Positions 6,418 to 45,850 of a stretch of DNA of 63,009 nt are shown piece after piece; positions within the stretch are counted from its first letter, which is position 1, and the number at the start of each line of letters is the position of its first letter. The notes below the pieces were generated by a model. The model was given only the letters and a program-made list of their open reading frames with translations. It ran no database searches and was not told the DNA's origin. The position numbers were made by a program, and so were the translations under genes. The stretch comes from Granulicella sp. (GTDB lineage Bacteria > Acidobacteriota > Terriglobia > Terriglobales > Acidobacteriaceae): contig DAHXNO010000027.1 in assembly GCA_027365345.1 (NCBI GenBank), positions 1 to 63,009 on the forward strand, written 5' to 3'.

Positions 6418-9099
6418 TTACATCGCTGGGTAGTTGATCTCCTCATGCAGCGGAAGCTCGGCGGATGATGGGCCCACACTCAGTGTCCGTGCGCCTTGCG
6501 GCAACGTCCACTTCTGTTCTTTCGCGGACCAGTACTGCAACTGGCGAAGCGGCACATGCAGCGCGACCACGCGGCTTTGGCCCGCTGGGATATTGACCCG
6601 GTCAAAGGCTACCAGCGCGTTCACCGGGAACTGCACACCCGCCGGGATCGAGCTCGGCGCGCCAAGATAAGCCTGCGGCACTTCGTCAGAGTCCATCTTG
6701 CCCGTGTTGCGAATCTCGAAGCTCAGATTCAGCCCGCCGTCCTCGGCCTTCTGAACCTTCAGCCCAGAGTAGGCAAAGCTGGCGTAGCTCAAGCCGTAGC
6801 CAAATGGGAATAGCGGCTGGATGTGCTCCTTCTGGAACCAGCGGTAACCCACATTAACGCCTTCGCTATAAGTTGTCTTTCCGTCAACGCCCTTCCTGCT
6901 CCGCTCCGGATAGCGCGGATCGGTCGCCGGATAGTCCGTCAGCTTCTTCCCCCAGGTCACCGGCAGCCGCCCGGCCGGACTTGCCTTGCCGAGCAGCAGA
7001 TTGGCCGTGGACCATCCACCTTCGTCGCCGGGCCACCACATTTCGAGTACGGCCCTCACCTTGTCGAGCCACGGCAGCGCCACTGGCTGGCTCGTATTGA
7101 GCACAACGATGGTGTTCGGATTCACCGCCGCCACCTCTTCCACCAACTTGTCCTGATCACCCGGCAGCCCAAAGACAGGCGTTAGCCGTGTCCAGACAAA
7201 GACCACGGCGACCTTGGCCTTCTTCGCCGCCTCAATCGCCGCCGCGGCATCCGCCTTGCGCTGCTCAGGCGTGTACCAGTTCAGACACACCTGCACCGGC
7301 GCTCCAGAGCTGTCCGGCGTGGTCTTCACCTCAATTGCATGTGGGCCGGCTGTCAGGCGTACGGCGCGCCGCAGATTGTCCAGCCCGTCGGGTGTCGGCA
7401 CTACATTGTCTTGGTTGGCTTGCAGAATATCGCCGTGCACTCCACCCTGGAAGGCGCCGGTCCGCGCCAGCGGTTTGCCGTCGATCATGATGCTGGCATT
7501 GGTCCCCAGCGCCTGCAGATAGAGCCAGTAATCGCCGCCGTGCGGCGGGGTGAGCGTGCCCTTCCACGTCAGCATCGCATTGGCCGGCAGTGGGTTGCCA
7601 TTCAGTTGGGGGAAGTTCAGTTGCGCGTCCACCTGCGTCGCGCCACCGCCGCTGCCGGTGCGCAGCAAGCCGGGCTTGCCGTCGTGGCTCAGGGCGCTGG
7701 CCGGAACAAGGGTTCCGGTCATGTTGTCCGCCACGGCGAATCGAATGTGCGGATCCCCGGAGATCTTTCGCATCGCCGCCAGCGGACCCACCTCGCGCCA
7801 CGGCAACCCCACGCTGCGTTCTCCGTTGATTCCGATCGAGTCTACCTGTCCGGCCGTCGGCCCGATCAGCACCACGTCGTCCAGTTCCGCGGCGTTGAGC
7901 GGCAGCAAATGGTCATCATCTTTCAGCAGAACGGCGGCATCTTCACCGGTCCTTTCAATAATCTTCGCGTTGGCCTCAATGTCTTGCGGCGTTACGGAAT
8001 GCTTTTCGCCGCCGTCCAGATAGCCAAACCTATCCATCTCGCTGAGGACACGCCCGGCTGCCTGGGTGATTCTTGCCTCGGTCACCGTTCCATCTTTCAG
8101 GGCAGCCGGCATTCTCTCCGGGTTCAACTTGACCCCGAAGTCACCCTTGCCTCGTGGCGCCGGGGCCGGCTCCTCCGGAATGTGGCCACCGAACATCGCC
8201 ATCATGTCCTTCATGGCCTGCGGTGGAATGGGCCGCGGCGGCGCAAGACTGAAGAACGACGGAATTCCAAGTCCGGTCCCCGGCATCTCCATATCCAGAC
8301 CGGCGTTGATAAAGTTCACCGCATGGACCGCGCCCCAGTCGGAGGTCACGAACCCTTTGAATCCCATCTGGCCGCGCAGGATCACCGTCAGATTGTGCTT
8401 GTTGCCGCAGGCAAACGGGCCGTTGATCCGGTTGTAAGAGCACATCATCGATGCCACCCCCGCATGGATCGCGGCATCGAACGGAGCCAGATAGACCTCG
8501 TGCAGCGTCTGATCGTCCACAAAGATGTTCGTCGCATTCGAGTCGTAGGCCACGTAATGCTTCACCATCGCCATCTCGTGCTGCGACTGGATGCCCTCAA
8601 TCTCCTTGGCCCCGATGACGCTGGTCAGGTAAGGATCCTCGCCAAAGGTGTTGTATCCGCGACCGAACTCAAGGTCGCGATCGATATTCACAAACGGCTG
8701 CAGGCTTACGTCAATGCCGTTGGCGCGGTCCTCGCGTCCGATCACGACGCCATTTTCGAAGGCATCTTTGGGGCTGAAGGTTGCGGCGACGCCCATGGTC
8801 GCCGTCTCGCCCTCGCTCGGCACGCGCGTCAGCACGCCCGGCGGCCCGTCCGCAAAACGCAGTCCCGGAATGCCGAGCCTTGGCACACCCGCCAGATAGC
8901 CCGCCTGCCCTTGGTAGACCGCGGGGTCCTCCAGCGCACCGTGAATCAGCGCGATCTTTTCCTGAAGCGTCATCTCGCTGAGCAGCCGGTCCACTCGAGG
9001 ATTGCCGGTCACCACCGGCGCAGACTGCGCCGCCGCCATGCTAGCCAGCAACATGGCGGCGCCCATTGCCGCCAGCCTGTGCACAGAAATTCCTCGCAT
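6418..9099 (-). CDS. Secreted GH3 beta-glucosidase with PA14-like insert
   Basis: An 893-residue glycoside hydrolase family 3 protein. A signal peptide (MRGISVHRLAAMGAAMLLASMAAAQ) opens the sequence. The catalytic barrel follows, with KHYVAYD and the nucleophile Asp in VTSDWGAVH near residue 253. The alpha/beta sandwich domain is split by a PA14-like sugar-binding insert at about 470-600 (DYWLYLQ, NASIMIDGK). A fibronectin-III-like C-terminal domain ends the protein. The family releases terminal beta-linked sugars from oligosaccharides. I chose the ATG at 9099 because GGAGGG sits five bases ahead; the upstream in-frame start at 9117 would place codons before that site. It is divergent from the TonB receptor and belongs to the pectin/plant-polymer locus. 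The precise sugar specificity cannot be read. Confidence 0.93.
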   Translation of the reverse strand: MRGISVHRLAAMGAAMLLASMAAAQSAPVVTGNPRVDRLLSEMTLQEKIALIHGALEDPAVYQGQAGYLAGVPRLGIPGLRFADGPPGVLTRVPSEGETATMGVAATFSPKDAFENGVVIGREDRANGIDVSLQPFVNIDRDLEFGRGYNTFGEDPYLTSVIGAKEIEGIQSQHEMAMVKHYVAYDSNATNIFVDDQTLHEVYLAPFDAAIHAGVASMMCSYNRINGPFACGNKHNLTVILRGQMGFKGFVTSDWGAVHAVNFINAGLDMEMPGTGLGIPSFFSLAPPRPIPPQAMKDMMAMFGGHIPEEPAPAPRGKGDFGVKLNPERMPAALKDGTVTEARITQAAGRVLSEMDRFGYLDGGEKHSVTPQDIEANAKIIERTGEDAAVLLKDDDHLLPLNAAELDDVVLIGPTAGQVDSIGINGERSVGLPWREVGPLAAMRKISGDPHIRFAVADNMTGTLVPASALSHDGKPGLLRTGSGGGATQVDAQLNFPQLNGNPLPANAMLTWKGTLTPPHGGDYWLYLQALGTNASIMIDGKPLARTGAFQGGVHGDILQANQDNVVPTPDGLDNLRRAVRLTAGPHAIEVKTTPDSSGAPVQVCLNWYTPEQRKADAAAAIEAAKKAKVAVVFVWTRLTPVFGLPGDQDKLVEEVAAVNPNTIVVLNTSQPVALPWLDKVRAVLEMWWPGDEGGWSTANLLLGKASPAGRLPVTWGKKLTDYPATDPRYPERSRKGVDGKTTYSEGVNVGYRWFQKEHIQPLFPFGYGLSYASFAYSGLKVQKAEDGGLNLSFEIRNTGKMDSDEVPQAYLGAPSSIPAGVQFPVNALVAFDRVNIPAGQSRVVALHVPLRQLQYWSAKEQKWTLPQGARTLSVGPSSAELPLHEEINYPAM

Positions 9100-9288
9100 T
9101 ATTTCCCTCCGGAGCAACGTCCCGAGCAGTCTAATGGCGCACTCAATGGCTTGGCAAATGAAAGGAAGCGACGCGGGTCATTGCCCCTCAGTCTTACATC
9201 GGCGTTTGCCGACCCACGGTAAATGAAACCGCTTTCGACGAATGGACAAAACCTTCTTATGGAGACATCTCTGATAGGAACCTTCTCG

Positions 9289-10134: not shown

Positions 10135-13100
10135 ATGACGAGAAATAGAATCATGAAGTTCCTCCTCCTGCCGCTATTCCTCCTTTTGACCAGTGTCCAA
10201 GTCTTCGCACAGGCCAACTCGACGATCATCGGCACAGTTACCGACCAGACCGGGGCCGTTGTGCCGGGAGCTACGGTTCAACTCATCGACCCGGTGACCG
10301 GGCTCACTCAGAAAACAGTCAGCGACGGAAGCGGCTTGTATTCCTTCGCCGGTTTGAATGCGGGCCACTACAACCTGAAGGTCTCCGCCAAAGGCTTTCG
10401 GACATCCGTCCAGACCGGCGTGGTGGTGAACATTTCGATGACCTTCCGGGTGGACGTGAAACTCGCGGTTGGTGAGTCCAATCAGACAGTCACCGTGGTT
10501 GCCAACGCGCTCACCGTGCAGGCTGAGTCGAACGAGGTGAGCACCCTCATCACCCAACAGCAGATTGCGCAGTTGCCCACCAACGGCCGCAGCGTCATCA
10601 GTCTGGCGACGTTCGGCATGGGCATCAGCGGCAACCTGCCATCGATGGAAAGTCCCTTTTCGGACAATGCCAGTTACGCCATCAGCTTTAATGGCCTCAA
10701 CCAGGACCACAATATCTGGATCGTGGACGGCGGCGAAGACTACGACCGCGGCGCTGGCGGCACCATGTCCATCATGCCCTCGCAGGATGCGCTCGGCGAG
10801 TTCCAGGTGCTATCGAGCAACTACAATCCGGACTACGGCTACGCCTCGGGCGGCGCGATCACCATGTCCATCAAGAGCGGCACCTCGCAGTTTCATGGCG
10901 GAGTCTGGGAGTACGACCGCAACGATACGCTCGACGCCCGCGACTACTTCGACAGGGCCCCGCAGCCGATCACAGAGCTGCGCTATAACGTCTTTGGAGC
11001 CAACCTGGGCGGACCGTTCTTCATCCCCGGCCACTATAACTCCGTGCAGAAGAACAAGACATTCTTCTTCTACAACGAGGAGTGGCGCAGGATGGTCACT
11101 GGCGTTCCAACCAATCCGATTCAAACCGTGCCCGCGGCCGATATAGTGACATCGCCATCCACCTTCACCTACCAGCTACCCGTCTACGACGCCGCACCAC
11201 AGCTCATGGTGCCCAACGCTCCGGTAGGCACGCCCCTCTATAATTCCTTGGTGGCGGATGGCCTTACCCCCGGACAACCTTGGGTGTACAACGGCGTGGC
11301 CAACGCCATTCCCGCGAACCTTTTGGACTCAAACGCGCTGCTCTTCAACACCCTCCACGACCTTCCCCCGTCAACCTCGCCCAGTGGCACCTACACGCCC
11401 GTTGGCGGCCATCTGCCCATCATGGTCCGGGAAGACCTCTTCCGCGTCGACCACAACTTCAACAGCAAATGGTCGATCTTCGGCCACTTTGTCCACGACG
11501 CAAGCGTCTCATCCCAGGCCACGCCAGAGTGGCAGGCGGACAACATCCCGACCGTGGGCTCTACGTTCAGCAACCCATCTTATAGCTCCGTCATCAAGCT
11601 GACCGGCACCCTGTCCCCCAACGTCCTGCTGGAAGCCGCCCTGAACTATGACGGCAACAAGATCCTCATCGCTCCCGTAGCCGAGGCTGGAGGCACTTTT
11701 GTCCAGCCTACGGGCTGGAACGCCCAAAGTTACTTTGGGTCGGGCGTCAACGCGCTGGACCGCCTGCCCAACATCACCTGGTCCACCGTGGGCGATACCT
11801 GGGGACCGGGCAACGATCCCTGGCACAACGGAGCCGAGGATCTCAACGAGTACCTCTTCCTGACCGTGACGACGGGCAAGCATACCCTGAAGTTCGGTGG
11901 CTATTTTAACCGTTACACCAAAAACCAGATCATTGGCAGCCAGACTGAAGGCACCTATACCTTCAACGACGGCTTTGCCAACGGTGCTTCGACCACCAGC
12001 CTGACCGGCGATTCCTATGCGGACTTCCTGCTCGGTTTGGCCACCAACTACAACCAGGCCAACGCCGACCCCGTCAATCACTACTTCGAGAACACCATCT
12101 CCGTTTTTGGCATGGACAACTGGCATGTGACGCCCCGCCTCAATGTGCAGCTTGGCCTGCGTTACGACGCCATGCCACTGGACGAGGAGCGCAATAACCA
12201 GGTCTCAAACTTCTACCCGAACCTCTATCAGCCCGCTCTCACTCCCACGTTCGGCGCCAGCGGCGCTTTCTGCACCGGAGCCGGCGCAGGATGCACAAGC
12301 ACCAGTCCTGGGTTGACGCAATGGGATTTGGCAACCCAGCAGCCAATCGTCTCGGGATCACAGCCCGTTAACGTAGATTATCCCTTGTTTTACCTCAATG
12401 GCGTCGGTTTAGCCGGGCGTAACGGCGTACCGCGCGGTCTGGCGAGGAACGATTACAATACGATCGAGCCTCGGCTCGGTTTCGCGTATGACATGTTCGG
12501 AAACGGCAAAACCGTCCTCCGCGGCGGCTTCGGAGTCTTCTACGAACGCGTCCAGGGCAACACTATCTACGATGCCGCCGGCGCTGCGCCGTTCGTTACC
12601 ACTCCCTCGGCAAACAACGTGGAATTCAGTAACCCGAGCACCAGTTGGCTAACCGGCGCAACTGCGGCCACGCCCCTGTTCCCAGAGGGCTACAACTCGA
12701 TGGACACCCATTTCCCCAATCCCGGAGTCGCCGAGTACAGTCTGGGCATCCAGCATCAGATTGCGCCGGCCATCATCTTTACCGTGCAGTACGTTGGCAA
12801 CGTGCAGTGGGACCAGAACCTCTGGGTTCCCGTCAACAACTTCCCGCTCACCACGCCGATTGCGACCCGCAAGTTGGCTGCGGCAGACCAACTTCCCCCG
12901 CAACAGGTCAACAGCGACGTAACGTACCCAGGCTACGGCGACATCAACCTCCAGGAGGACCCGGCCAACGGCAGCTACAACAGCTTGCAGATCGGTTTGC
13001 GGCAACAGAATAGGTGGGGCCTCAGCTACGGCGCGTACTACACATGGTCCCATGAGATTGACAACCAGGTGCTCAGCGAAGATGTGGACAACGGCAACCC

Positions 13101-13734
13101 AGACTATAATCCGTGGAATCCAGCGTATGACAAAGGATCAGGCTCGCTGGATCGCCGTCAGATCCTCAACATCAACTTCGAGTACCAGTTGCCATTCTTC
13201 GAGCACTCGCACGGCCTCACTCGCAGCCTGGCGGGCGGATGGGAGATCGCAGGCGACTTCCTCGGCGAGACTGGTCTGCCGTGGTTCGGCAACGCGGCGC
13301 CCGGAAACTCCTACGGCGATACCGTCGGTCTCGGTGGCTACTACAACAGCCGTCCTCAACTGACCGGCCCGATCCATTACATCAAGAGCCACTACCAGTG
13401 GCTGACGAATGCCAACTTCACCTCGCCGGTCCCGGTCTGGGAGGGTGGCACCACCAATGGCTTCGGCAACTCCGGCAAAGACGCCGTGGTTGGAGCCGGC
13501 TCCAGCAACGTCAACCTCTCGGTCTACAAAACCTTCCTCATCGGCAAGGTCAACGTCCAGCTCCGGGTTGACACCTTCAACACCCTCAACCATCCGCAGT
13601 TCACCGGTTTCCTCTCCAGTAACCCGAACCAACCAAGCAGCGGAAACTTCGGCGTCCTTGGCTCTGACACGGTTGGGGGCAGCGTGACCTCAAACGCCAG
13701 ACAGATCGAACTCGGCGGCAAGGTCTTCTTCTGA
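10135..13734 (+). CDS. TonB-dependent receptor, Oar/acidobacterial carbohydrate type
   Basis: A 1199-residue outer-membrane receptor. A signal peptide (to about residue 26, ending VQVFAQA) is followed by a carboxypeptidase-regulatory-like beta-sandwich (about 27-110: GTVTDQTGAVVPGATV, then YSFAGLNAGHYNLKV), a plug (about 130-240, with LPTNGRSVISLATF and DGGEDYD), and a long beta-barrel ending in aromatic GGKVFF. Proteins of this build are abundant in Acidobacteria and are thought to import complex oligosaccharides with TonB-ExbBD energy; none of those partners is in the window. Start ATG at 10135 has GGAGAG five bases upstream; the alternative ATG at 10153 has none. A strong terminator follows. 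The neighbours point to pectin or hemicellulose oligomers as cargo. Confidence 0.95.
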   Translation: MTRNRIMKFLLLPLFLLLTSVQVFAQANSTIIGTVTDQTGAVVPGATVQLIDPVTGLTQKTVSDGSGLYSFAGLNAGHYNLKVSAKGFRTSVQTGVVVNISMTFRVDVKLAVGESNQTVTVVANALTVQAESNEVSTLITQQQIAQLPTNGRSVISLATFGMGISGNLPSMESPFSDNASYAISFNGLNQDHNIWIVDGGEDYDRGAGGTMSIMPSQDALGEFQVLSSNYNPDYGYASGGAITMSIKSGTSQFHGGVWEYDRNDTLDARDYFDRAPQPITELRYNVFGANLGGPFFIPGHYNSVQKNKTFFFYNEEWRRMVTGVPTNPIQTVPAADIVTSPSTFTYQLPVYDAAPQLMVPNAPVGTPLYNSLVADGLTPGQPWVYNGVANAIPANLLDSNALLFNTLHDLPPSTSPSGTYTPVGGHLPIMVREDLFRVDHNFNSKWSIFGHFVHDASVSSQATPEWQADNIPTVGSTFSNPSYSSVIKLTGTLSPNVLLEAALNYDGNKILIAPVAEAGGTFVQPTGWNAQSYFGSGVNALDRLPNITWSTVGDTWGPGNDPWHNGAEDLNEYLFLTVTTGKHTLKFGGYFNRYTKNQIIGSQTEGTYTFNDGFANGASTTSLTGDSYADFLLGLATNYNQANADPVNHYFENTISVFGMDNWHVTPRLNVQLGLRYDAMPLDEERNNQVSNFYPNLYQPALTPTFGASGAFCTGAGAGCTSTSPGLTQWDLATQQPIVSGSQPVNVDYPLFYLNGVGLAGRNGVPRGLARNDYNTIEPRLGFAYDMFGNGKTVLRGGFGVFYERVQGNTIYDAAGAAPFVTTPSANNVEFSNPSTSWLTGATAATPLFPEGYNSMDTHFPNPGVAEYSLGIQHQIAPAIIFTVQYVGNVQWDQNLWVPVNNFPLTTPIATRKLAAADQLPPQQVNSDVTYPGYGDINLQEDPANGSYNSLQIGLRQQNRWGLSYGAYYTWSHEIDNQVLSEDVDNGNPDYNPWNPAYDKGSGSLDRRQILNINFEYQLPFFEHSHGLTRSLAGGWEIAGDFLGETGLPWFGNAAPGNSYGDTVGLGGYYNSRPQLTGPIHYIKSHYQWLTNANFTSPVPVWEGGTTNGFGNSGKDAVVGAGSSNVNLSVYKTFLIGKVNVQLRVDTFNTLNHPQFTGFLSSNPNQPSSGNFGVLGSDTVGGSVTSNARQIELGGKVFF

Positions 13735-13859: not shown

Positions 13860-15086
13860 ATGATCGAACCTGACTGGAATGGGAAAGCGGCTCATCCATG
13901 TCATCGCCTTTCTGCCCGCCCATTGCTCTTCGGCTTGGCGCTGCTTCTTTGCGCCTTCCCATGTGCGGCGCAGGAATCAACTGCGCCTCCAACCTCCCGC
14001 CAAAGGGCGCTTCTTCTTGAAGAAAGGGGCGATGATGCAGGCGCTGAGTCGGCTTGGCGCGCTTGGCTCAACGCCCATCCGTCCAGCGCCGAAGCCTATG
14101 CGAATCTAGGGGTAATTGCCGCGCGCCAGCAGCACTATACGCAGGCCATTGCCGACGACCGCAAGGCTCTCGCCCTTCACTTTCCCGGCTCTGGCCTGCG
14201 CCTCAACCTCGGGCTGGCGCTCTTCAAGGACGGCCAGATGCAGCAGGCTGCTCAGGAGTTTCTTCCTCTGATTCGTGCGGCTGCTGCCAATTCGCCGGAG
14301 CGGCAGCGGTTGGCTATTCTGCTCGGCATGTCCTATTACGGCGCCGGAGAGTACGCCAAGGCCGCACCGTTTTTGCAGGAAGCCGCGGACCGCGACCCCA
14401 GCAACCTGCCCTTGCGGCTCGCCTTGGCGCACAGCTACCTTTGGACCAAGCAGGATCAAAAGGTCCTGGCTGTCTATCGCCAGATTCTCGTCTTGAACCC
14501 GAACTCGGCCGAGGCGGATATGCTGGCTGGCGAAGCTCTGGACCAGATGAAAGACTGGACGGGCGCGGTGAATCAATTCCGCGCCGCAATCCAGGCAGAT
14601 CCCACCCTGCCGGATGTGCACTTCGGCCTCGGTTACCTGTATTGGTCCAAGCATCGCTATCCTGAAGCGATTCCGGAGTTCACTGCCGAACTTAATCTCG
14701 ACCCGAACGATGCCGAGGATCTCAGCTATCTGGGCGATTGCCGCGTAAAGCTCAACCAATTCGAGGTTGCGCGGCCACTTCTCGAAAAGGCGATTCAGAT
14801 CAATCCCAAAAGCGAACTTGCCCACCTCGATCTAGGCGCGGTCGATGCCAGCACGGGCCGGACGGAGAACGCCCTGCGCGAACTCAAGCTGGCCGAATCG
14901 CTTGCACCGAACGACGTCAATGTCCATTGGCGTCTGGGCCGTCTCTATCGGGCAATGGGCCAAACCGCGGAGGCCAAGGCTGAGTTTGCCAAAACCCAAA
15001 ATATCGTCCAGGCAGCCGACACCGCTCTGGTCGAGAAACTTACTCCGCGGGAACAAAAACCAGCCACAGTTCCAGCAGCGAAATAA
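13860..15086 (+). CDS. Secreted or periplasmic TPR-repeat protein
   Basis: A 408-residue protein with an N-terminal export signal (hydrophobic LLFGLALLLCAFPCAAQ at about 22-38) followed by about nine tetratricopeptide repeats from residue 47 onward (for example SAEAYANLGVIAARQQHYTQ, LPDVHFGLGYLYWSKHRYPE, NVHWRLGRLYRAMGQTAE). TPR arrays bind other proteins; there is no catalytic domain. Homologous TPR genes often follow carbohydrate-type TonB receptors in Acidobacteria, which suggests a scaffold role for the receptor or for secreted enzymes, but this is inference. GAGAGG stands four bases before the ATG. It has its own start after the terminator of the receptor gene. Confidence 0.88.
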   Translation: MIEPDWNGKAAHPCHRLSARPLLFGLALLLCAFPCAAQESTAPPTSRQRALLLEERGDDAGAESAWRAWLNAHPSSAEAYANLGVIAARQQHYTQAIADDRKALALHFPGSGLRLNLGLALFKDGQMQQAAQEFLPLIRAAAANSPERQRLAILLGMSYYGAGEYAKAAPFLQEAADRDPSNLPLRLALAHSYLWTKQDQKVLAVYRQILVLNPNSAEADMLAGEALDQMKDWTGAVNQFRAAIQADPTLPDVHFGLGYLYWSKHRYPEAIPEFTAELNLDPNDAEDLSYLGDCRVKLNQFEVARPLLEKAIQINPKSELAHLDLGAVDASTGRTENALRELKLAESLAPNDVNVHWRLGRLYRAMGQTAEAKAEFAKTQNIVQAADTALVEKLTPREQKPATVPAAK

Positions 15087-15184: not shown

Positions 15185-16534
15185 TTACGATTGCTGCGCC
15201 CCACCAAGACCAGTCCCGGTAACGTTGTGCGCAGTGATCAGCGGCCCCGAATAACCAGTGACGTGAAGATTGCGGAGCTGTGCGTGGCGGATGTTGGCCA
15301 GAAAGAGTCCCTTTTCGCAGGTCCCGCTGACGTTCTCCAACGTGAAACCCTCAAGCGGCTTCTCTACGGAGATTTTCGTCGCCTCCACCAGCACCGGACA
15401 ATCCGTAACTCGAACTCCGGAGAAGCGGAAGTTACTGCCGCTCGGAATGCCGGCTGGTCCAGGTACCGGATGCTCACCCAATAGACCGCTGCTCAGCAAG
15501 TTCACGCGCAGAAATCCCCCCTCCACTCCAGCGACGTCCAGATCGGTAGCGGAGATGTCCTCCACGTAGGCGCCCCTGCCAACACGCGACTTGATATAGA
15601 TGGCGAAGCTCCGCGCGTGAGTGAATCGGCAGCGTTCGATACGGACTCCGCGGATGCCGCCGGAGGTCTCGCTGCCAATTCCGATGCAGGCAAAGATGGA
15701 ATCGGCAAACGTGCAGTCTGTAATCAGAACATCTTCCGTCGGACGATGCAGCGTGTAGCCCTCTTCGCCGCGGCCCGACTTCAGCGAAATACAGTCGTCG
15801 CCGGTGGAGATATCGCAGCCTTCGATCCGCACATGACGGCAGGAGTCGAGATCGATGCCATCGCCGTTGCCGCCGGTGCTTCGGATCGTCAACCCACGTA
15901 TCACGATGTTCTCGCAGTCCGTTGGATGAATGGACCACATATGGTGGTAGCTGGTGGAAAAGCCCTCCAGAAATAGACCTCTGCAACGAATGAACTCGAT
16001 CAGCGCGGGACGGCGCAACGGATCCTGAGATGTTGGTCTTATTCCGATGGTCAGATCACCGGCAATCTGACCAGGACCAGTAATGCCCACTCGCTCGGCG
16101 TCGATCGCGTAAACCAGGCCAACGTGGCCTTGGATCCACCTTCCCTCCCAGCGCACCTGGGTCACGGTGTAGTCAGCCGGATCGGAAGATCCCTGCAAGA
16201 TTGCATCCTTCTCCAGGTGCAGTTCCGTGCCGGAGCGCAGCGCAATCGACCCTGTCAGGTACTTGCCTGCGGGAACCTCCACCACCCCGCCGCCCAGCAC
16301 CGCGCATCTGTCCAGCGCCTGCTGCAAGGCCGCGGTATCTTTGCTAACGCCATCTCCGGTAGCGCCAAAGTCGCGGACATTCAATGTCGCCTTGGGTGAC
16401 GGCTGCGATTTGGGGTGTGATTCCGTCGTCTGCACCGCCCAGGCTGCCGGAACCGCTGCAACCAGCGGAGCGGCTGCGATCGCGTAACCGCCAGTGGAAA
16501 GAAAACGGCGTCGATTGAATCGAGGACTTTTCAT
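15185..16534 (-). CDS. Tat-exported GH28 polygalacturonase-like enzyme
   Basis: A 449-residue right-handed beta-helix enzyme of GH28 type. The N-terminus NRRRFLSTGGYAIAAAP is a Tat signal, so the enzyme is exported folded. After the pectate-lyase-3-like opening (VRDFGATGDGVSKDTAALQ) come the GH28 motifs in order: GNGDGIDLDS, TGDDCISLKS, IGIGSETSGG and YIKSR. The Asp residues of the first two act in hydrolysis. The third motif has IGIGS where many polygalacturonases have GHG, so the substrate may differ (exo-acting or rhamnogalacturonan-type). I prefer the ATG at 16534, which gives a normal Tat n-region; a GTG at 16573 would add 13 residues and has AAAGGAG ten bases upstream. It converges on the TPR gene and diverges from the fusion enzyme. 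Confidence 0.88.
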   Translation of the reverse strand: MKSPRFNRRRFLSTGGYAIAAAPLVAAVPAAWAVQTTESHPKSQPSPKATLNVRDFGATGDGVSKDTAALQQALDRCAVLGGGVVEVPAGKYLTGSIALRSGTELHLEKDAILQGSSDPADYTVTQVRWEGRWIQGHVGLVYAIDAERVGITGPGQIAGDLTIGIRPTSQDPLRRPALIEFIRCRGLFLEGFSTSYHHMWSIHPTDCENIVIRGLTIRSTGGNGDGIDLDSCRHVRIEGCDISTGDDCISLKSGRGEEGYTLHRPTEDVLITDCTFADSIFACIGIGSETSGGIRGVRIERCRFTHARSFAIYIKSRVGRGAYVEDISATDLDVAGVEGGFLRVNLLSSGLLGEHPVPGPAGIPSGSNFRFSGVRVTDCPVLVEATKISVEKPLEGFTLENVSGTCEKGLFLANIRHAQLRNLHVTGYSGPLITAHNVTGTGLGGAQQS

Positions 16535-16562
16535 AGAGAAGCAGTGGGAACCCTTGCGGGTT

Positions 16563-16582
16563 GGAGGGCTCACCGGCCCTCC
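16563..16582 (-). promoter_or_regulatory. Hairpin overlapping possible RBS of the GH28 gene
   Basis: Seven-base arms GGAGGGC and GCCCTCC flank a six-base loop that contains the alternative GTG start codon. If translation began at this GTG, its purine-rich ribosome site would be inside the stem; if it begins at 16534 the hairpin sits in the leader. No T run follows on either strand. Confidence 0.4.
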
Positions 16583-17001
16583 GCTCCTTTACCTGATGTA
16601 TTGGCGAAGCTAATGACCGGATCACTCGGAGGAGAAGTGCTGCCGTTGCAGCGCCGCTCGGACTGTCGCCGAAACGCCCTTGAGGTCTGACCTTTCCTGT
16701 GCGTATCCGACCGTATCAATCCCGGCTGGAGATGTCAAGATCAGCCCTGAAAGTTGCAGCAGATGCTGTCGGCATCCGAATTCCAGCGCTTCCGTGATGA
16801 CAAAACACCTTATCATCCTTGAGCTGCCCAATACCCGCCTCGGTCTGCGTGAGCGCCGCCAGACGTCTTGACCCCTTCGCCGGCAGGAAGATAGCATGGC
16901 ATGGGTGGTCTATCCTCTTGGCCGCCTCTGCTGATCCGTTCCTGTCCAACAGCCGCCCAGAATACCCACCTCCGCACACCACTGGAGCCCCTCGCCCGCC
17001 C
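16583..17001. other. Divergent intergenic region between two pectinase genes
   Basis: About 420 bases that should hold both promoters of the divergent GH28 and fusion-enzyme genes. An open frame extends the plus-strand gene to 16819, but its composition and lack of a ribosome site argue against use. I see no reliable operator or promoter. Confidence 0.5.
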
Positions 17002-19362
17002 ATGCACAACCTTCGCTGGTCGCATCCCCTGCTACTTCTCTCTTTGGCCTCTGCGCTGCATGCGCAGGACCTGCGCCACGTCACTCAACCCAGGATTCCC
17101 CAGGCCTGCACCGTACTGCAAGCGAAGCTGGCCCCGGTTGCTGGCCGCTTGCCCGCAGACGCTGAAGATCACCTGGACACAGCTCGCATCCAGCAAGCCA
17201 TGGACCAGTGTCCAGCAGGTAAGGCTGTCGTACTGGAATCCAGCGCCAGCGGCCAGGTCTTTCTCTCCGGCCCCTTGGCCCTGCGTTCCGGGGTTACCCT
17301 GGTGGTCGATCAGGGAACGCTGCTGGCTGCCTCAACGAACCCCAGGCTCTATGACCTGGAGCCCGGAAGTTGCGGGGTGCTGGGGATGCACGGGGTCGGC
17401 TGCAAGCCCTTCCTCTTCGGCAACGGCATTGACAACAGCGGCATCATGGGAAAGGGCGCGATCGACGGGCGCGGCGGGGCCAGGCTGCAAGGACAGAACG
17501 TGACCTGGTGGGAGCTGGCCCAGCGGGCAAAGTTGCTGGACCTTTATCAGAAAGTACCCCACCTGATCATCCTCAACCGGGTTAAGAACTTCACCCTCTA
17601 TCAAATTACGCTGCGCAATGCTCCCGGAGGTCACGTAAGCGCGCACAACGCCGACGGCTTTACCGCGTGGGGCGTCACCATTGACACGCCGGCCACTGCC
17701 CGCAACACCGACGGCATTGATCCTGGGTCCTCCACCAACGTCACCATCACGCACTGCAACATTCAAAATGGCGATGATGAGGTCGCTGTCGGCTCTGGCG
17801 GAGACCTCCCATCCTCCCACCTCTCGATCCTGGACAATCACTTCTACGCGGGCCACGGCATGTCCATCGGTAGCGGAACCAGCGGCGGCGTCAACCACAT
17901 GCTGGTCAAGAACCTCACCATCGACCATACGCAGAACGGCATCCGCATCAAATCCGATCCCAGCCGCGGAGGCCTGGTGCAGCAGATCATCTACCAGAAC
18001 ATCTGTATCCGCAACGCAACCAACCCCATTGTGATCACGCCGCATTACACAGACTTTGCCGGAAACCGGCTGCCCATCTACCAGGACGTCACCCTGCGCA
18101 ATGTCGATGTCCTCACGCCTGGGAACTATATCTTCTCGGGGCTGGATGCCCAGCACAAGCTCGGGCTGACGTTGGATAACGTCTTTGCGCAGGGGCTTGA
18201 CCGCTCGCACGTGCAAGCGTTGAACGCCGCAATAATCATCGGACCGCAGCTTGGCAACCTCATCCCCCAGGGCCAGGACGTAACCACCACCCAGGCGCCC
18301 GGCGCCCAACACGGCGAGCCGTCCGCACAGCCCATCTCCTGCCCGGCCGCCCTGGAGCCCTTCGCCGACCCGTCAACGGCGCCCCACCTTGAAGAACAGA
18401 TCCCTCCGGTGGATCACACCTTCTATGTGGCCGCCGACGGCACGGGCGACTTCTACTCCATTCAGCAAGCCCTCAACGCTGTCCCCAACACCGGCGGGCT
18501 CATCTCAGTGGCTCCCGGAACCTACCACGAGGTGCTAACGATCACGAAGCCCCACATCATCCTGCGCAGTCCATACCGGCAGGCCGGACGGACGGTGGTC
18601 GCAGCAGACAAGAGCGCAGGCGACTCAGGCGGAACCGACCGTTCAGCAACCGTGAACGTTCTGGCCAATGACTTCCTCGCTCAAAACATCACTATCCAGA
18701 ACAACTTCAATGCCACCCACCCGCAGCTTCCGCAGGGCTCACAGGCCGTCGCCCTGCTGGTGCGCGGCGACCGGGAGATCTTCGACAACGTTCGGCTGCT
18801 CGGCAACCAAGACACCTTGCTGGCAGGCGACGCACCCTGCAAAGCGCCCTCCTGCGCGGCCGCACGACAGTACTTCAACCGCTGCTACATCGAAGGCAAC
18901 GTCGACTTCATCTTCGGCAACGCGAAGGCGGTCTTCAACCAATGCGAGATCCACAGCAATCCGCACTCGGAGGGGATGCTGACCGCGCAGAGCCGAATCT
19001 TCCCGCAGCAGGACTCCGGCTTTGTCTTCAACAACTGCAGGCTTACCGCCGATAGCGGCGTAACCAACGTTTATCTTGGCAGACCATGGCGGCCCTATGC
19101 CCTCGTCGTCTACCTCAACACCTGGATGGGCCAGCAAATCATGCCCGCCGGCTGGCGAGAGTGGCATCCTGGAGAGACCCATTCGCTCCAGACGGCCTAT
19201 TATGCTGAGTTTCACTCCAGTGGACCGGGAGCCCACCAGGGCCAGCGGGAGCCATATTCCCACCAGTTGACCGAAAAGCAAGCGCAGAGGTTTACCCCGG
19301 AGAACTGGCTGCGCGGCAGCGACGGATGGAACCCAACAGCGATTCAGGACCAGCAACCATAG
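17002..19362 (+). CDS. Secreted polygalacturonase-pectin methylesterase fusion
   Basis: A 786-residue bifunctional pectinase. After a signal peptide (MHNLRWSHPLLLLSLASALHAQ), a GH28 domain (about 40-440) shows the full catalytic set: NTDGIDPG near 235, NGDDEVAVGSG near 257, GHGMSIGSG near 284 and GIRIKSDPSRGG near 315. A linker rich in Gln/Ala/Pro joins it to a CE8 pectinesterase domain (about 475-770) with GTYHEV, GNQDTLLA, the catalytic Asp in VDFIFGNAKAVF near 635 and YLGRPWRPY near 692. Methylesterase removal of methyl groups exposes polygalacturonate to the hydrolase, so one polypeptide covers both steps. I chose the ATG at 17002 because it begins the signal peptide; no strong ribosome site is visible. 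Its C-terminal third has a broken paralog at 85-438. Confidence 0.92.
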   Translation: MHNLRWSHPLLLLSLASALHAQDLRHVTQPRIPQACTVLQAKLAPVAGRLPADAEDHLDTARIQQAMDQCPAGKAVVLESSASGQVFLSGPLALRSGVTLVVDQGTLLAASTNPRLYDLEPGSCGVLGMHGVGCKPFLFGNGIDNSGIMGKGAIDGRGGARLQGQNVTWWELAQRAKLLDLYQKVPHLIILNRVKNFTLYQITLRNAPGGHVSAHNADGFTAWGVTIDTPATARNTDGIDPGSSTNVTITHCNIQNGDDEVAVGSGGDLPSSHLSILDNHFYAGHGMSIGSGTSGGVNHMLVKNLTIDHTQNGIRIKSDPSRGGLVQQIIYQNICIRNATNPIVITPHYTDFAGNRLPIYQDVTLRNVDVLTPGNYIFSGLDAQHKLGLTLDNVFAQGLDRSHVQALNAAIIIGPQLGNLIPQGQDVTTTQAPGAQHGEPSAQPISCPAALEPFADPSTAPHLEEQIPPVDHTFYVAADGTGDFYSIQQALNAVPNTGGLISVAPGTYHEVLTITKPHIILRSPYRQAGRTVVAADKSAGDSGGTDRSATVNVLANDFLAQNITIQNNFNATHPQLPQGSQAVALLVRGDREIFDNVRLLGNQDTLLAGDAPCKAPSCAAARQYFNRCYIEGNVDFIFGNAKAVFNQCEIHSNPHSEGMLTAQSRIFPQQDSGFVFNNCRLTADSGVTNVYLGRPWRPYALVVYLNTWMGQQIMPAGWREWHPGETHSLQTAYYAEFHSSGPGAHQGQREPYSHQLTEKQAQRFTPENWLRGSDGWNPTAIQDQQP

Positions 19363-19714: not shown

Positions 19715-21976
19715 ATGAGAAAGTTGGGCTCCTTGCGAAAGCTTCCTTCTGTCTTGGCTCTCTGCTCCACGCTCGCCCTCACCGCCGGAGCCGCTGCGCA
19801 GCAGCAACCGCTGCATCCTCCACAGCAGGTCTCTCAGTGGCAGTTGCAGAACTATCCCTTCGACAACCCGAAGCTACCCACTGAGCAGCGCATCGATGAC
19901 CTGCTCGCGCGGATGACGCTGGATGAGAAGATCGACTGCCTGGGTACCTCCACTGGCGTGCCACGCCTGGGCGTTCCCAATATCGGCAGCTCAGAAGGGA
20001 TTCACGGTGTCGTGCAGCGCCAGTCCCGCTATGGTCGCCAGCCCATCACCACCACGCAGTTCCCGCAGCCCCCGGGCATGGGCGAGAGCTGGGATCCCGA
20101 GCTGGTTCGCCAGGCTGCGGGAGTCGAGGGCTATGAGGCCCGCTACATCACGCAGACGCCAAAGTACAACCGCCAGATCCTCATGCTCTGGGGCCCCCAG
20201 TCTGACCTGGACCGTGACCCCCGCTGGGGCCGCAGTGAAGAGGTATACGGAGAGGATCCCTTCTTCAACGGAACCATGGCGACCGCCTTCATCCACGGCC
20301 TGCAGGGCGATAACCCAAAGTACTGGCAGGCAGCCGCTCTGCTCAAGCACTTTCTGGCCAATGAGAATGAAAACTACCGCACCAGATCCTCCTCCAACTT
20401 CGACCAGCGGCTCTTCTGGGAGTACTACTCGGTTCCCTTCCGCATGGGTTTTCTGCAGGGAGGGGCGAAGGCGGTCATGGCCTCCTACAACGCCTGGAAC
20501 GGCACTCCCATGGCCGTCAACCCCATCCTTCGCACTCTGCTCATCGGCCAATGGGGCCTGGACGTGATCTCCAGCGATGGCGGCGCGATCCACTTGCTCG
20601 TGGACCCTCGCCATCTCTTTCCCAACCAGAACGCGGCCGTGGTTGCATCCTTCAAGGCCGGAATCAATCAGTTCCTGGATAGTTACAAGGACGAGATGCA
20701 CGCCGCGGTAAAGCAGGGATTGATCTCCCCGGCCGAGATCGATCAGGCGCTGCGCCGCAAGTTCCGCATTGAGATCAAACTCGGACTGCTCGATCCACCC
20801 AGCATGGTTCCGTACACCGCAATCCGGCGGACGGGCGATCAGCCGCCGCCATGGGACACCGATCGCGATCGTTCCGTCTCCCGCAAGCTGGCGATTGAGT
20901 CCGTCGTCCTGCTCAAGAACCAGAACAACTTCCTTCCCCTGGATCGGGCGAAGATCCACTCCATCGCGGTGATTGGTCCGCTGGCCAACGTGGTGCACTG
21001 GGATTGGTATGGCGGCACGCCACCCTATGCCGTAACTCCGCTCGAAGGCATTCGCGACGAAGTCGGTCCCTACGTCAAAATCAACTTTGTGCCCTACGAC
21101 TCCGCCAACGATGAAGTTGCCGCCGTACAAGCGGCGCGCCACTCCGACGTCGCCATCGTGGTCATCGGCAACGACCCAACCTGCGGCGATCAGGGTGATT
21201 CCTGGGTGAACACCCCTGACGGCGGCAACACACTTCCCTGCACCACCCCCAGCGACGGGCGTGAGGGACGCGACCGCGAGAGCATCCAGTTGGCCCAGGA
21301 GCAGATCGCCAAGCAGATTTACTACGTCAATCCGCACACGGTCGAAATCCTGGTCTCCAGCTTCCCCTTCGCCATCAATTGGAGCCAGGCGAACCTGCCT
21401 GCCATCCTTCACATGGCGCAGTCCTCGCAAGACGAAGGAACCGCCTTGGCAAAAGTCCTCTTTGGCGACGAAGACCCCGGAGGCCATCTGGTGGATACCT
21501 GGCCCAGCTCCGCCAGCCAGTTACCGCCATTGATGGATTACAACATTCGCGACGGCCACACCTACATGTACTTCAAGGGGCAGCCGCTCTACCCATTCGG
21601 CTTTGGGCTCAGCTACACCACCTTCAAGTACTCCAACCTCCGTGCCAGCTCAACCCATCTTGCCAAAGACGGCGCCATCACCGTCAGCGTCGACGTAACC
21701 AACACCGGCCAGCGAGCTGGCGATGCCGTGGTACAGCTCTACGTCCACTATCCCCACTCCGCGGTCGAGCGCCCTCGCGAAGAGCTGGAGGGCTTCCAGC
21801 GCGTCCGCGTCGAGCCTGGCCAGACCCAGACCGTGCATATTCCCCTGCCCGCACAGCGTCTGGCCTACTGGAACAGTCAAGCCCAATCGCTGGACGTGGA
21901 AGCGACGCCGATTGTCCTCTTGGCCGGGGCATCCTCAGCAGATCTCCCGCTGCAGACGACGATCCAGGTCCAGTAA
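19715..21976 (+). CDS. Secreted GH3 glycosidase (xylosidase/glucosidase type)
   Basis: A 753-residue GH3 protein with a signal peptide (LPSVLALCSTLALTAGAAAQ). Family features in order: MTLDEKIDCLG, the DLDRDPRWGRSEEVYGEDP segment, LLKHFLANENE, the nucleophile Asp in VISSDGGAIHLL near residue 288, the second domain from about 390 (ESVVLLKNQNNFLPLD), and a fibronectin-III-like C-terminus (PFGFGLSYTTFKYSNL, DAVVQLYVHYP). Here the nucleophile is followed by Gly-Gly and not by Trp as in the other GH3 at 6418, so the two enzymes should prefer different substrates. It has no PA14 insert. It is the last gene of the pectin/plant-polymer locus, 352 bases after the fusion enzyme. Confidence 0.92.
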   Translation: MRKLGSLRKLPSVLALCSTLALTAGAAAQQQPLHPPQQVSQWQLQNYPFDNPKLPTEQRIDDLLARMTLDEKIDCLGTSTGVPRLGVPNIGSSEGIHGVVQRQSRYGRQPITTTQFPQPPGMGESWDPELVRQAAGVEGYEARYITQTPKYNRQILMLWGPQSDLDRDPRWGRSEEVYGEDPFFNGTMATAFIHGLQGDNPKYWQAAALLKHFLANENENYRTRSSSNFDQRLFWEYYSVPFRMGFLQGGAKAVMASYNAWNGTPMAVNPILRTLLIGQWGLDVISSDGGAIHLLVDPRHLFPNQNAAVVASFKAGINQFLDSYKDEMHAAVKQGLISPAEIDQALRRKFRIEIKLGLLDPPSMVPYTAIRRTGDQPPPWDTDRDRSVSRKLAIESVVLLKNQNNFLPLDRAKIHSIAVIGPLANVVHWDWYGGTPPYAVTPLEGIRDEVGPYVKINFVPYDSANDEVAAVQAARHSDVAIVVIGNDPTCGDQGDSWVNTPDGGNTLPCTTPSDGREGRDRESIQLAQEQIAKQIYYVNPHTVEILVSSFPFAINWSQANLPAILHMAQSSQDEGTALAKVLFGDEDPGGHLVDTWPSSASQLPPLMDYNIRDGHTYMYFKGQPLYPFGFGLSYTTFKYSNLRASSTHLAKDGAITVSVDVTNTGQRAGDAVVQLYVHYPHSAVERPREELEGFQRVRVEPGQTQTVHIPLPAQRLAYWNSQAQSLDVEATPIVLLAGASSADLPLQTTIQVQ

Positions 21977-40427: not shown

Positions 40428-41150
40428 TCACTTCTTCTGCAATGGTAAGGTCTGAGTATCCTTGTTAAGCAGATCCTCCACTTGGATACTTGTAGCTCCA
40501 ATACTGACCACCCTATAACGGCGCGATACGATATCGCCCTCGGAGGCCAGGTATACATTCCCCCCATCGAGCAGGAACGCCTGATTCTTTCCTGTCACCC
40601 GCATCGCCGTTCCAAAGAACTTAAGCGGAATCGGCGGCAGCGGAGGCGGACCCATCGGCACATGAGACGCCGCTGCCGCTGCCGCTGCCGCCGCCCCACC
40701 CGGCCGAGCACCCGGTAAACCTTTTGGAATCAATAACTGCGGCGGCGGCGCGGAGATAACCGAAAAGATGTTGCGTCCCGTCCCGGTATACACCAGACTC
40801 TCGGTTCGCAGCATCGCCGACTCATCCAACGTGGGATCAAGGCTCGACGATGTCCTGGCCAACATCCGCGCGGCAACTCCGGGCGCGACACCCAGCCCCG
40901 CTCTGCCGTTGCTCACCGGAGCCGCGGATTCATAGGAGCGAGACTCCTCACGCTGCGCCGCCGATGGCGAGCCTGTGCCGTTGTCCGGCCCCTCGGCCGG
41001 AGCCTCCACAGCCGGCGCCGTGGTAGCCGCAGGGTTCGGTGAGCCGCCAAAGAAACTGTTGTACGCGTAGACGACGAAGACCAGCAACAGCGAACCGAAG
41101 ATGGAGACCACCACCAGCGTCTTCTTGTCCCTGGCAGGAGCAGCGCTCAT
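40428..41150 (-). CDS. PilP/GspC-like assembly protein
   Basis: A 240-residue inner-membrane protein: short cytosolic start, one helix (TLVVVSIFGSLLLVFVVYAY), a Pro/Ala-rich periplasmic linker with a run of nine Ala, and a C-terminal beta domain (PLKFFGTAMRVTGKNQAFL, GNVYLASEGDIVSRRYRVVSIG) of the kind found in PilP and GspC homology regions, which touch the secretin. Its ATG overlaps the pilO stop (ATGA) and has GGGAGG six bases ahead. Assignment to PilP or to GspC is not decided by sequence alone; the pilM-N-O context favours PilP. Confidence 0.75.
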   Translation of the reverse strand: MSAAPARDKKTLVVVSIFGSLLLVFVVYAYNSFFGGSPNPAATTAPAVEAPAEGPDNGTGSPSAAQREESRSYESAAPVSNGRAGLGVAPGVAARMLARTSSSLDPTLDESAMLRTESLVYTGTGRNIFSVISAPPPQLLIPKGLPGARPGGAAAAAAAAASHVPMGPPPLPPIPLKFFGTAMRVTGKNQAFLLDGGNVYLASEGDIVSRRYRVVSIGATSIQVEDLLNKDTQTLPLQKK

Positions 41151-42034
41151 GGCCGGCCTCCCGTAGTGGTTGGCTGTCCGCCGGGGCGGCCTCTACCAAT
41201 TCCGCTACCGCCCTTGCCGCGGTTACCAGAGCTCAACGTCTGACCCTGCGTTCCTGGCCTTTGGCCCGCTGCTCCGGCGCCAGGCGCGGCCTGCTCTCCC
41301 AACCTCGAATTCCCCGCCCCGGGGCGCTGCGCATCACTCTCCGCCGCAGGTATCTCCGCTGAGAGTTCGTTATCGTCCGGCGGCCGCAGATAGGTCGTCA
41401 GCCGGATGCGCAGATTCACTTCCCCGGATTGCTGCCCGGAGAGATCGATGCCGTTGATCACAAAGAAGACCTTGTCCCGCTCCAGGGAGTTGATGAACAG
41501 GACGATCGGCCGGTAATCTCCCGAGACGCTGGCGTCAATGCTTACCTGGGTTAGCGCGTACTTACCGGAGAGCGCCGGGAAGTACGCGTACTGCGCATGA
41601 GTCCAGCGCACGCCGGCCTTGTGCGCCAAGTCTCCAATCTCGGCCGCTACCTGGGAATCCGCGTACGGCAACCGGGTCCGATAGAACGTATCCGCATCGC
41701 GAGTGGAGGCCGCCAACTTCTTATCCAGCCCGCGCAGTGGTCTGGCCGCCAGCTGCGCTGCAATCAACTGCACCCGCTGCTGTTCCACTGCCGCATCATT
41801 GTTCGCGCTCAATCCACTCCAGAGCACGGCAAGATGCACCGCAAGATACAGCACACATAGCAGCAGAAAAGCCACACCTGCCAGATGCAAGTTCAATGTG
41901 GTCAGCATCTTCCGGGCACGCGCCAAAAGCCGCGGCAACGGGCGCTCCGCCACGGGGTTCTCGGACGGCGGCATGGTGGCAGCCGGCATCCCCCCCGGTC
42001 GCTCGCTGCCTGGTGGGATAAGGGCCATACTCAC
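41147..42034 (-). CDS. pilO: PilO-like assembly protein
   Basis: A 295-residue bitopic protein: 48 cytosolic residues, one membrane helix (LAGVAFLLLCVLYLAVHLAVLW), coiled-coil (about 75-115), then a ferredoxin-like domain (LAHKAGVRWTHAQYAYFPALSGKYALTQ and IVLFINSLERDKVFFVI) as in PilO/GspM. The last 75 residues are Gly/Pro/Arg-rich and disordered. The start is probably GTG at 42034 (GGGGGG six bases ahead), overlapping the pilN stop. PilO pairs with PilN to form the alignment subcomplex. Confidence 0.78.
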   Translation of the reverse strand: MSMALIPPGSERPGGMPAATMPPSENPVAERPLPRLLARARKMLTTLNLHLAGVAFLLLCVLYLAVHLAVLWSGLSANNDAAVEQQRVQLIAAQLAARPLRGLDKKLAASTRDADTFYRTRLPYADSQVAAEIGDLAHKAGVRWTHAQYAYFPALSGKYALTQVSIDASVSGDYRPIVLFINSLERDKVFFVINGIDLSGQQSGEVNLRIRLTTYLRPPDDNELSAEIPAAESDAQRPGAGNSRLGEQAAPGAGAAGQRPGTQGQTLSSGNRGKGGSGIGRGRPGGQPTTTGGRP

Positions 42035-42840
42035 GGCGTACCCCCCGTCGCAGACTTGCGACTCCGTCGTACAGGGCCAGATCGCTTCCGCGCACCAGCA
42101 TGACCCTGTTCCGATCTGCCCTTCGAGGGTTCCTTCGCGGCGGAAGCGGCTTTCTTCTTCGTTCCCGGCTCTACGGCCGCATGCTCCTTGGCCACGCTTG
42201 CGTTCTGGACACCATAAAGCTGCCCGGGAGGCAGCGGATTATAGTTGGCTAGAATCTCGAACTCCACGCCCGGCGGCGGACCCGCCATCAAACCTCCGGC
42301 GCCCATACGATTCCCCTGCTGGCTAAGATCCTTCGCCTCAGTGGCCTCACCCGTAAGCCGCGGCTCCAGAAACCGCTTGGACCGCTCCAGGTTCCGCACC
42401 AGTTGCACCGCCCGGTCCCGGTCACCGGAGACCCGCAGGTGAATCATCACGTCTCCATCGGTGGTTGGCTCCGGCTCAATGGAAGTAACCTGCACGCCCT
42501 CGGGCAGCACAGTCTCCAGATCCATCATCACGGCCGTCCAGGAGAAGCTCTTGCGCAGAAATAGAGCGTTCAGGAAGTCTGCGCGTGTGAGAATGGCGGC
42601 ATTGGCAGGCTGGCGCATCCGCCTCACATTGCTAAGCCGCTCATTCCGGAACGCCACCACCCTCACATGCACGGCATTCAGCCTTTCTTGCGCAGCCTCC
42701 AGCTTCTTTTCCAACAGGTGCGTCGCCGCCAGCCCACCCATAGCCAGCAAAACCATCAGGGCCATCAGAATCCGCAGCCGCAGAACAATAGGTCCCAACT
42801 CAACATAGGGCCGCGTGGCGAGATTGACCGTAATCCGCAT
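42031..42840 (-). CDS. pilN: PilN-like assembly protein
   Basis: A 269-residue protein. The N-terminus MRITVNLATRPY corresponds to the conserved INLLP-type motif by which PilN binds PilM. One membrane helix (about 24-42), a coiled coil (LEKKLEAAQERLNAVHVRVV), and a ferredoxin-like domain (SWTAVMMDLETVLPEGVQVTSIEPE) follow. The last 60 residues are Lys/Arg/Ser-rich and disordered. Overlaps the pilM stop by one base (TGATG). Confidence 0.82.
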   Translation of the reverse strand: MRITVNLATRPYVELGPIVLRLRILMALMVLLAMGGLAATHLLEKKLEAAQERLNAVHVRVVAFRNERLSNVRRMRQPANAAILTRADFLNALFLRKSFSWTAVMMDLETVLPEGVQVTSIEPEPTTDGDVMIHLRVSGDRDRAVQLVRNLERSKRFLEPRLTGEATEAKDLSQQGNRMGAGGLMAGPPPGVEFEILANYNPLPPGQLYGVQNASVAKEHAAVEPGTKKKAASAAKEPSKGRSEQGHAGARKRSGPVRRSRKSATGGTP

Positions 42841-43907: not shown

Positions 43908-44106
43908 CAAACTCTAACTAGAGTACAGTGCATGAGATAGGGATGACAGTGCTGTGGGGTTGGACGTTCGATCCGGCCCTCCGTTTGGCACGATGGGCTC
44001 AGGCCGCGTGGCGCAAAGCGAGGTAAGAGCGCCGGAATGCAGCGTGTGCAAGTACACATCCCCGTCTTCGGCGGATAACGGCGGATTTTGCAGGCAACCC
44101 CGGATC

Positions 44107-45744: not shown

Positions 45745-45850
45745 AAAGTCTTAACCTCTCAAGAAACTCTTGAACGCCCTCCAAAAAATATGCCAGCCCA
45801 GCACTCGGAATCGCTCCCTGGGATCCAGGCCAGCCCCCCGATGATCCAGG

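Follow-up and report, generated by a model that had tools for sequence, protein, structure and literature searches.

Polygalacturonases of the PehA-like GH28 type require unesterified galacturonate, and methylated pectin withstands polygalacturonases until a methylesterase has acted. PehA from Pectobacterium (Erwinia) carotovora (1bhe) was solved as a single 376-residue domain without CE8. The solved chains of the plant methylesterases 1xg2 and 1gq8 and of PemA (1qjv/2nsp) from Dickeya/Erwinia chrysanthemi carry CE8 alone. An esterase-lyase precedent is reportedly provided by PelA of Pseudoalteromonas. Fusions of CE8 with PL1, PL9 or PL10 have already been published (PMC9690682, PMC4081043, PMC6223089, PMC12093494).

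The gene described here joins GH28 and CE8 in one open frame. It is located at 17002-19362 (+) of the window, i.e. the whole stretch of 63,009 nucleotides from a Granulicella sp. that was analysed. Judged by sequence and a structure model, its product can with good confidence be predicted to be a pectinase of Granulicella-like Acidobacteriaceae that would unite two activities in one secreted chain.

One frame with two pectinase halves

The frame runs uninterrupted from the ATG at 17002 to the stop at 19362 and encodes 786 aa; upstream of the ATG, it is open as far as a TTG at 16819. Start codon, signal peptide and length are common to three full-length relatives with 82-84% identity. The signal peptide (residues 1-21, 17002-17064, +) was assigned by eye, without a predictor, as MHNLRWSHPLLLLSLASALHA with cleavage after AHA and QD following; its hydrophobic N-terminus is kept in the relatives. 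Downstream lie the GH28 polygalacturonase half (residues 22-440, 17065-18321, +), a linker (residues 441-472, 18322-18417, +) and the CE8 pectin methylesterase half (residues 473-786, 18418-19359, +). Both Pfam families are matched far above their curated cut-offs: PF00295 has its best stretch at residues 137-369 (E 8.1e-57, 193.2 bits vs. a cut-off of 22.9), and PF01095 covers residues 475-772 (E 1.3e-64, 218.2 bits vs. 27). This agrees with the preliminary description, which had proposed a single 786-residue polypeptide with one signal peptide. By sequence, the solved relative nearest to the GH28 half is PehA (1bhe; residues 23-395, E 1.3e-93), and those nearest to the CE8 half are the plant methylesterases 1gq8 and 1xg2.

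The window spans an entire contig of a genome in 208 contigs. It opens with a second, truncated copy of the 3' end of the fusion (139-438, +, within the first 438 bases). At 85 of 98 residues this copy is identical to the C-terminus of the fusion, compared with only 75-79 of 98 for the relatives. It is either a duplicate remnant or a contig-end effect. Contig size and partial copy might suggest that a frameshift or a chimeric contig had created the fused frame. This is refuted by independent assemblies, among them those of Acidipila rosea DSM 103428 and Terracidiphilus gabretensis S55, which also contain the full-length frame, so that the chance of an annotation or assembly artefact is practically nil. 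A frameshift had been named at the outset as a possible refutation.

In the GH28 half, motifs and alignment locate N-T-D at residues 235-237 (17704-17712, +) with the catalytic Asp237, G-D-D at 257-259 (17770-17778, +) with the catalytic Asp258 and Asp259, G-H-G at 284-286 (17851-17859, +) with His285, and R-I-K at 315-317 (17944-17952, +) with Arg315 and Lys317. In the CE8 half, they locate Gln581 (18742-18744, +), Gln603-Asp604 in QDTL (18808-18813, +), Asp635 in DFIFG (18904-18906, +) and Arg694-Pro-Trp696 in LGRPW (19081-19089, +). We take the former to be the catalytic Asp triad, the His, the Arg and the Lys of the PehA literature and the latter to be the two Asp, two Gln, the Arg and the Trp of the PemA literature. 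The window protein has all six GH28 positions (D237, D258, D259, H285, R315, K317) and all six CE8 positions (Q581, Q603, D604, D635, R694, W696). These 12 positions are invariant across the 53 fusions of alignment A2, which comprises the window protein and 52 of 74 fused loci, with L089, cut rows and others omitted. When the 75 fused frames of loci L044-L123 were added to this alignment, 71 kept 12 of 12, and the earlier claim of intact motifs in both halves was upheld. The four exceptions are L089, L097, L106 and the second frame of L099. L097 and L106 are incomplete because contig ends cut their frames (L097 stops before R694), and the second L099 frame has lost all six GH28 positions. Only L089 (4959-7367, the same gene as L027) has CE8 substitutions: Q581 and D604 are missing and DIISG replaces DFIFG. 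A stricter motif pattern finds all seven motifs in 60 of the 74 fused loci. The CE8 half of L089 has also gained a low-complexity insert, and in the related L026 the frame terminates within CE8 near a similar short stretch.

Purifying selection acts on both halves. Compared with the three relatives, dN/dS (NG86) amounts to 0.135-0.175 for the GH28 half and 0.122-0.124 for the CE8 half; the 32 codons of the linker yield 0.059-0.158, rough values at a high dS. Conceivably, one half of the window protein could be catalytically dead and act as a binding module, as precedents exist in L089 with its degenerate CE8 and in seven type-2 fusions that have lost the GH28 residues (see below). With 12 of 12 catalytic positions kept and dN/dS at 0.12-0.18 in both halves, this is very improbable.

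An AlphaFold2 model of the fusion (53 sequences) has a mean pLDDT of 91.8 and a pTM of 0.80. Its GH28 half matches 1bhe in fold and catalytic motifs (Z 54.9, rmsd 1.2, 44% identity over 375 residues), which supports a right-handed parallel beta-helix. As 375 of the 376 residues of 1bhe are covered, a large exo-type insertion would be absent. The CE8 half shares fold (Z 38-41) and catalytic residues with the solved methylesterases: 1xg2_A is matched with Z 41.2 and rmsd 1.8 over 293 residues, PemA 2nsp_A with Z 38.4, and 2nsp and 2ntb, which show PemA with a hexasaccharide, at Z about 38. The preliminary description had considered processive attack on methylated pectin. In such an enzyme, the two beta-helices would be rigidly joined with their clefts in line, and a single pectin chain would be demethylated and cut without release. 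The pTM and a linker pLDDT of 81-88 (73 just ahead of the linker) may hint at a defined arrangement, but the GH28 half resembles the endo-polygalacturonase PehA, and no solved chain among the structure matches listed spans both halves. A processive mode is improbable; the wording exceeds the evidence and has the rank of a hypothesis only.

The fusion gene is preceded by a divergent gene for a second GH28 protein (15185-16573, -), whose nearest NCBIfam model is alpha-D-galacturonidase, far below the cut-off. This neighbour also adjoins the three closest fusions (79-83% identity). Downstream, a beta-xylosidase-like GH3 glycosidase is encoded (19715-21976, +; below the cut-off of its model). Farther upstream, genes for a second GH3 glycosidase (6418-9117, -), a large outer-membrane beta-barrel of uptake type with a CarboxypepD_reg domain (10135-13734, +) and a TPR protein (13860-15086, +) are found. 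Within flanks of up to 5 kb, a separate GH28 frame accompanies 38 of the 74 fused loci, or 29 of the 48 loci with more than 11.5 kb covered. The other neighbours are hardly kept (GH3 at 1, the barrel weakly at 10 and TPR at 0 of 74). A type II secretion or type IV pilus-like cluster with T2SSE, T2SSF, PilN and T2SSM matches is located at 41147-47044 (-) and might serve the export of such enzymes.

Elsewhere, the source genome has six other GH28 places. It encodes a stand-alone PehA-like GH28, a stand-alone CE8 (contig C162) and a PL10 lyase (contig C126). PF09492 is matched in the source genome and in 26 of 199 other relatives searched (in seven, close to the E limit), which rules out that acid-soil relatives use GH28 for want of pectate lyases. 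In the source genome, PF00544 (PL1) stayed below its cut-off. In another acidobacterial family (f30), CE8 and PL10 are fused in one frame (L204 1384-3414, L207 448-2679), and six further genomes of this family (G604, G613, G654, G683, G736, G859) have CE8 and PL10 places of equal frame length.

Distribution and origin of the fusion

Named genomes were scanned with an alignment of 16 fusions and two GH28 motifs as patterns, without a CE8 seed. The scan found 297 relatives, of which the best 80 were kept by a ranking that favours long matches. In 74 of these best 80 loci, GH28 and CE8 share one stop-to-stop frame (75 frames, as L099 has two). The six other loci are L111, whose frame is cut by the contig end and which may thus be fused or not, L112, L113, L116, L120 and L123; in L113, only a short CE8 match is left, in another frame. 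Among the carriers are Acidipila rosea DSM 103428 (L064), Terracidiphilus gabretensis S55 (L073), Granulicella MAGs (L045, L048), Solibacter/Bryobacterales MAGs (L085-L087, L090, L091, L094) and Gemmatimonadota MAGs (L107, L110, L114). In the Burkholderiales, Comamonadaceae OS-4 (L109) and Oxalobacteraceae such as Massilia horti (L119) carry the fusion. In six fusions of Oxalobacteraceae (L115, L117, L118, L119, L121, L122), acidobacterial models leave a linker gap of 151-168 residues, CE8 is very different, and other GH28 genes adjoin. The fusions in L064 (4986-7328) and L075 (4992-7382) have, by eye, lipoprotein-like signals (LSAC, VAAC), unlike the window protein, and may be anchored to the cell.

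Across the 200 relatives searched, with up to five candidates scored per genome, a match of any kind was found in 78 genomes and a one-frame GH28-CE8 pair of the window type in at least 16 (15 as a single match, G156 as two pieces in one frame). Phylum-wide, the fusion is sparse: at least 3 of 396 genomes have a full-length stop-free match (G000, G035, G870; two candidates scored per genome). The order of G200, the genome of L109, was sampled with 300 genomes; 20 had a match, and in at least two (G200, G261) both domains share one frame. Matches were obtained in 21 phage records, none of which, as listed, has a single place that covers 80% of the query.

Indirect evidence for expression comes from Candidatus Sulfopaludibacter MAG_CO124 (L087). 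Its genome has one PF01095 match, which lies within an 899-aa frame that also bears GH28. In a pectin-fed reactor at pH 4.5, CE8 and GH28 are reported among the transcribed pectin enzymes of CO124 (PMC10564751). Because no other CE8 was found in this genome, the transcribed CE8 would be the fusion.

A single origin of all fusions was rejected on the GH28 but not on the CE8 tree. The topology tests used hand-picked rows (55 of 139 for GH28, 55 of 130 for CE8), the tested clades were named after the trees had been seen, and several rows are long-branched. On GH28, one clade of all fused rows was rejected with four nested unfused rows included (p-AU 2.5e-4), with these left out (p-AU 2.3e-52), and also when the type-2 rows were dropped (p-AU 8.4e-4, 51 rows). 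On CE8, one fused clade was not rejected (p-AU 0.354). As the two trees differ in this way, exchange of domains is not separated from independent fusion. The acidobacterial fusions of the window type (type 1) together with the nested rows were not rejected as one GH28 clade (p-AU 0.234), whereas they were without the nested rows (5.6e-10) and when Gemmatimonadota rows were added (8.6e-4, in a set that lacked L035). The acidobacterial type-1 fusions may form a single clade in which CE8 was later lost a few times; L113, with its short CE8 match in another frame, is one of these cases. L111 and L124 were labelled unfused in the all-row FastTrees in spite of contig-end-cut frames; both are outside the 55-row sets. 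Within the fused clade, L029, L030 and L112 have lost CE8 and kept GH28 alone; L030 terminates just beyond the linker, L029 and L112 at the linker.

The preliminary description had called for an architecture search for the GH28-CE8 order, and this order proved to be fixed: GH28 comes first in 99 of 99 fused frames (duplicates and window sub-loci included). In contrast, where a PehA-like GH28 and CE8 are immediate neighbours without being fused, CE8 comes first in eight cases (L033, L036, L039, L130, L133, L134, L139, L155) and GH28 in three (L028, L031, L244). This count excludes L143 and L147, where another GH28 type comes first, and GH28-first pairs at least 1.4 kb apart (L137; G718, G734, G764, G795). 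In G018 (L028, 1429-3912), GH28 and CE8 occupy one frame as two genes, parted by a single stop just ahead of the CE8 start, and CE8 has a signal-like N-terminus of its own. The arrangement in G696 (L244, 823-3348) is the same. Both halves of G018 cluster with other unfused rows, which rules it out as a direct ancestor; the two genomes could only illustrate a possible route to such a fusion. In G018, a PL10 match starts about 400 bases past the CE8 match.

Type-2 fusions and the possible role of the tether

A second, diverged kind of fusion (type 2), which represents a sister lineage, was initially found in G044, G048, G056 and G085, three of which have a type-1 fusion as well. When 398 family genomes were searched with its GH28-fold half, seven places scored 462-694 bits and the next one 285, which added G1090, G1120 and G1128. 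The seven fusions are located in L245 (556-2772), L246 (490-2910), L247 (1-2391), L248 (1261-3549), L249 (1309-3615), L250 (1264-3576) and L251 (562-3033), with the first four also present as L099, L128, L127 and L126, respectively. In their GH28-fold half, the NTD, GDD, GHG and RIK motifs are replaced. At most one of the six GH28 positions is kept in each of the seven proteins (the G044 row, L248, has Asp at 237), while all six are kept in the 16 type-1 rows aligned alongside. QDTL, DFIFG and LGRPW of CE8 are intact in 7 of 7. The GH28-fold half can still be recognised, with 44-50% identity to the first in the four rows that were compared. Type 2 is likely to combine a GH28 pseudoenzyme with a functional esterase, and its GH28-fold half would perhaps be a pectin-binding arm.

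For the window protein, the following mode of action is proposed. Methyl esters of homogalacturonan would be stripped off by the C-terminal CE8 half. The PehA-like GH28 half at the N-terminus would then hydrolyse the bared stretch in an endo manner. The short conserved linker would hold both steps at one place at an activity ratio of 1:1. The released oligogalacturonates would be trimmed and taken up with the help of neighbouring enzymes and the outer-membrane protein. If the chain remains intact after secretion, both activities would be co-located; the linker might, however, be cleaved once the protein has been secreted. Counted against this proposal are the degenerate CE8 of L089, the seven type-2 fusions without GH28 catalytic residues, the stand-alone PehA-like GH28, stand-alone CE8 and PL10 of the source genome and the poorly kept neighbours.

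Whether the tether brings a real benefit is evenly balanced. Against it speaks the loss of CE8 in L029, L030 and L112, in which the tether is dispensable. Both halves might be active without any local coupling, so that the fusion would only spare a signal peptide and a promoter and ensure equal dose, possibly ending up as two chains after proteolysis. The same three losses fit such independent halves, as do the separate adjacent genes in several relatives of the same genus (e.g. L039, L130, L133). However, the linker has a low dN/dS (0.06-0.16 over 32 codons, rough because dS is high) and is often of equal length (with duplicate loci counted, the two HMM matches lie exactly 24 residues apart in 53 of 99 fused frames), and GH28 precedes CE8 in every fused frame, unlike in the adjacent unfused pairs. 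A single founder could also account for the fixed domain order within the Acidobacteriota. On the whole, independent halves are less likely than not.

At the other end, the linkage of GH28 and methylesterase might have been selected for its own sake, with multiple origins and always GH28 first. The GH28-fold half of type 2 would then act as an arm that grips pectin and brings the esterase into position, whereas the arm of the window protein would both hold and cut, the fresh demethylated stretch being passed to the hydrolase before it can diffuse away. This is rather unlikely. A natural enzyme with two activities would permit a direct test of whether tethering speeds up pectin breakdown, and the type-2 lineage, whose GH28 half looks dead, offers a natural control.

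Comparison with known fusions

A common, widely characterised architecture had been named as a possible refutation of the preliminary description. The architecture does recur, as the 74 of the best 80 loci demonstrate. A characterised GH28-CE8 protein was not found in the searches made of open-licence PMC papers, where such an absence is weak evidence. An annotated example is a fusion on a plasmid of Rhizobium sp. AB2/73 (L041, 7923-10223), which corresponds to WP_209160125.1, 'pectinesterase family protein'. As in the window, GH28 and CE8 form one annotated gene (40.8% identity over 93% of the query), but it is alphaproteobacterial, has a plasmid setting, and its record name gives the esterase only. 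The plasmid is typed conjugative, and the gene is located between repC (plasmid replication) and transposase genes. For gene lists, this means that public annotation may name one half only (L041) and that what looks like a lone 'CE8' in the genome of an acidobacterium can turn out to be this fusion, as in MAG CO124.

The known systems nearest in design are CE8-PL1 and PL10-CE8 proteins. In those from Ruminococcus (PMC4081043), Robertkochia (PMC9690682) and Clonostachys (PEL3, PMC6223089), a methylesterase is combined with an enzyme that cuts demethylated homogalacturonan, as in the window fusion. They differ in that their cutter is a lyase and not a GH28 hydrolase. If the window protein did pass the demethylated stretch to its hydrolase before diffusion sets in, it would be a hydrolytic counterpart of these esterase-lyase fusions. 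GH28-CE8 is a real and conserved pectinase architecture, apparently an uncharacterised one, and the GH28 counterpart of the published CE8-lyase fusions.
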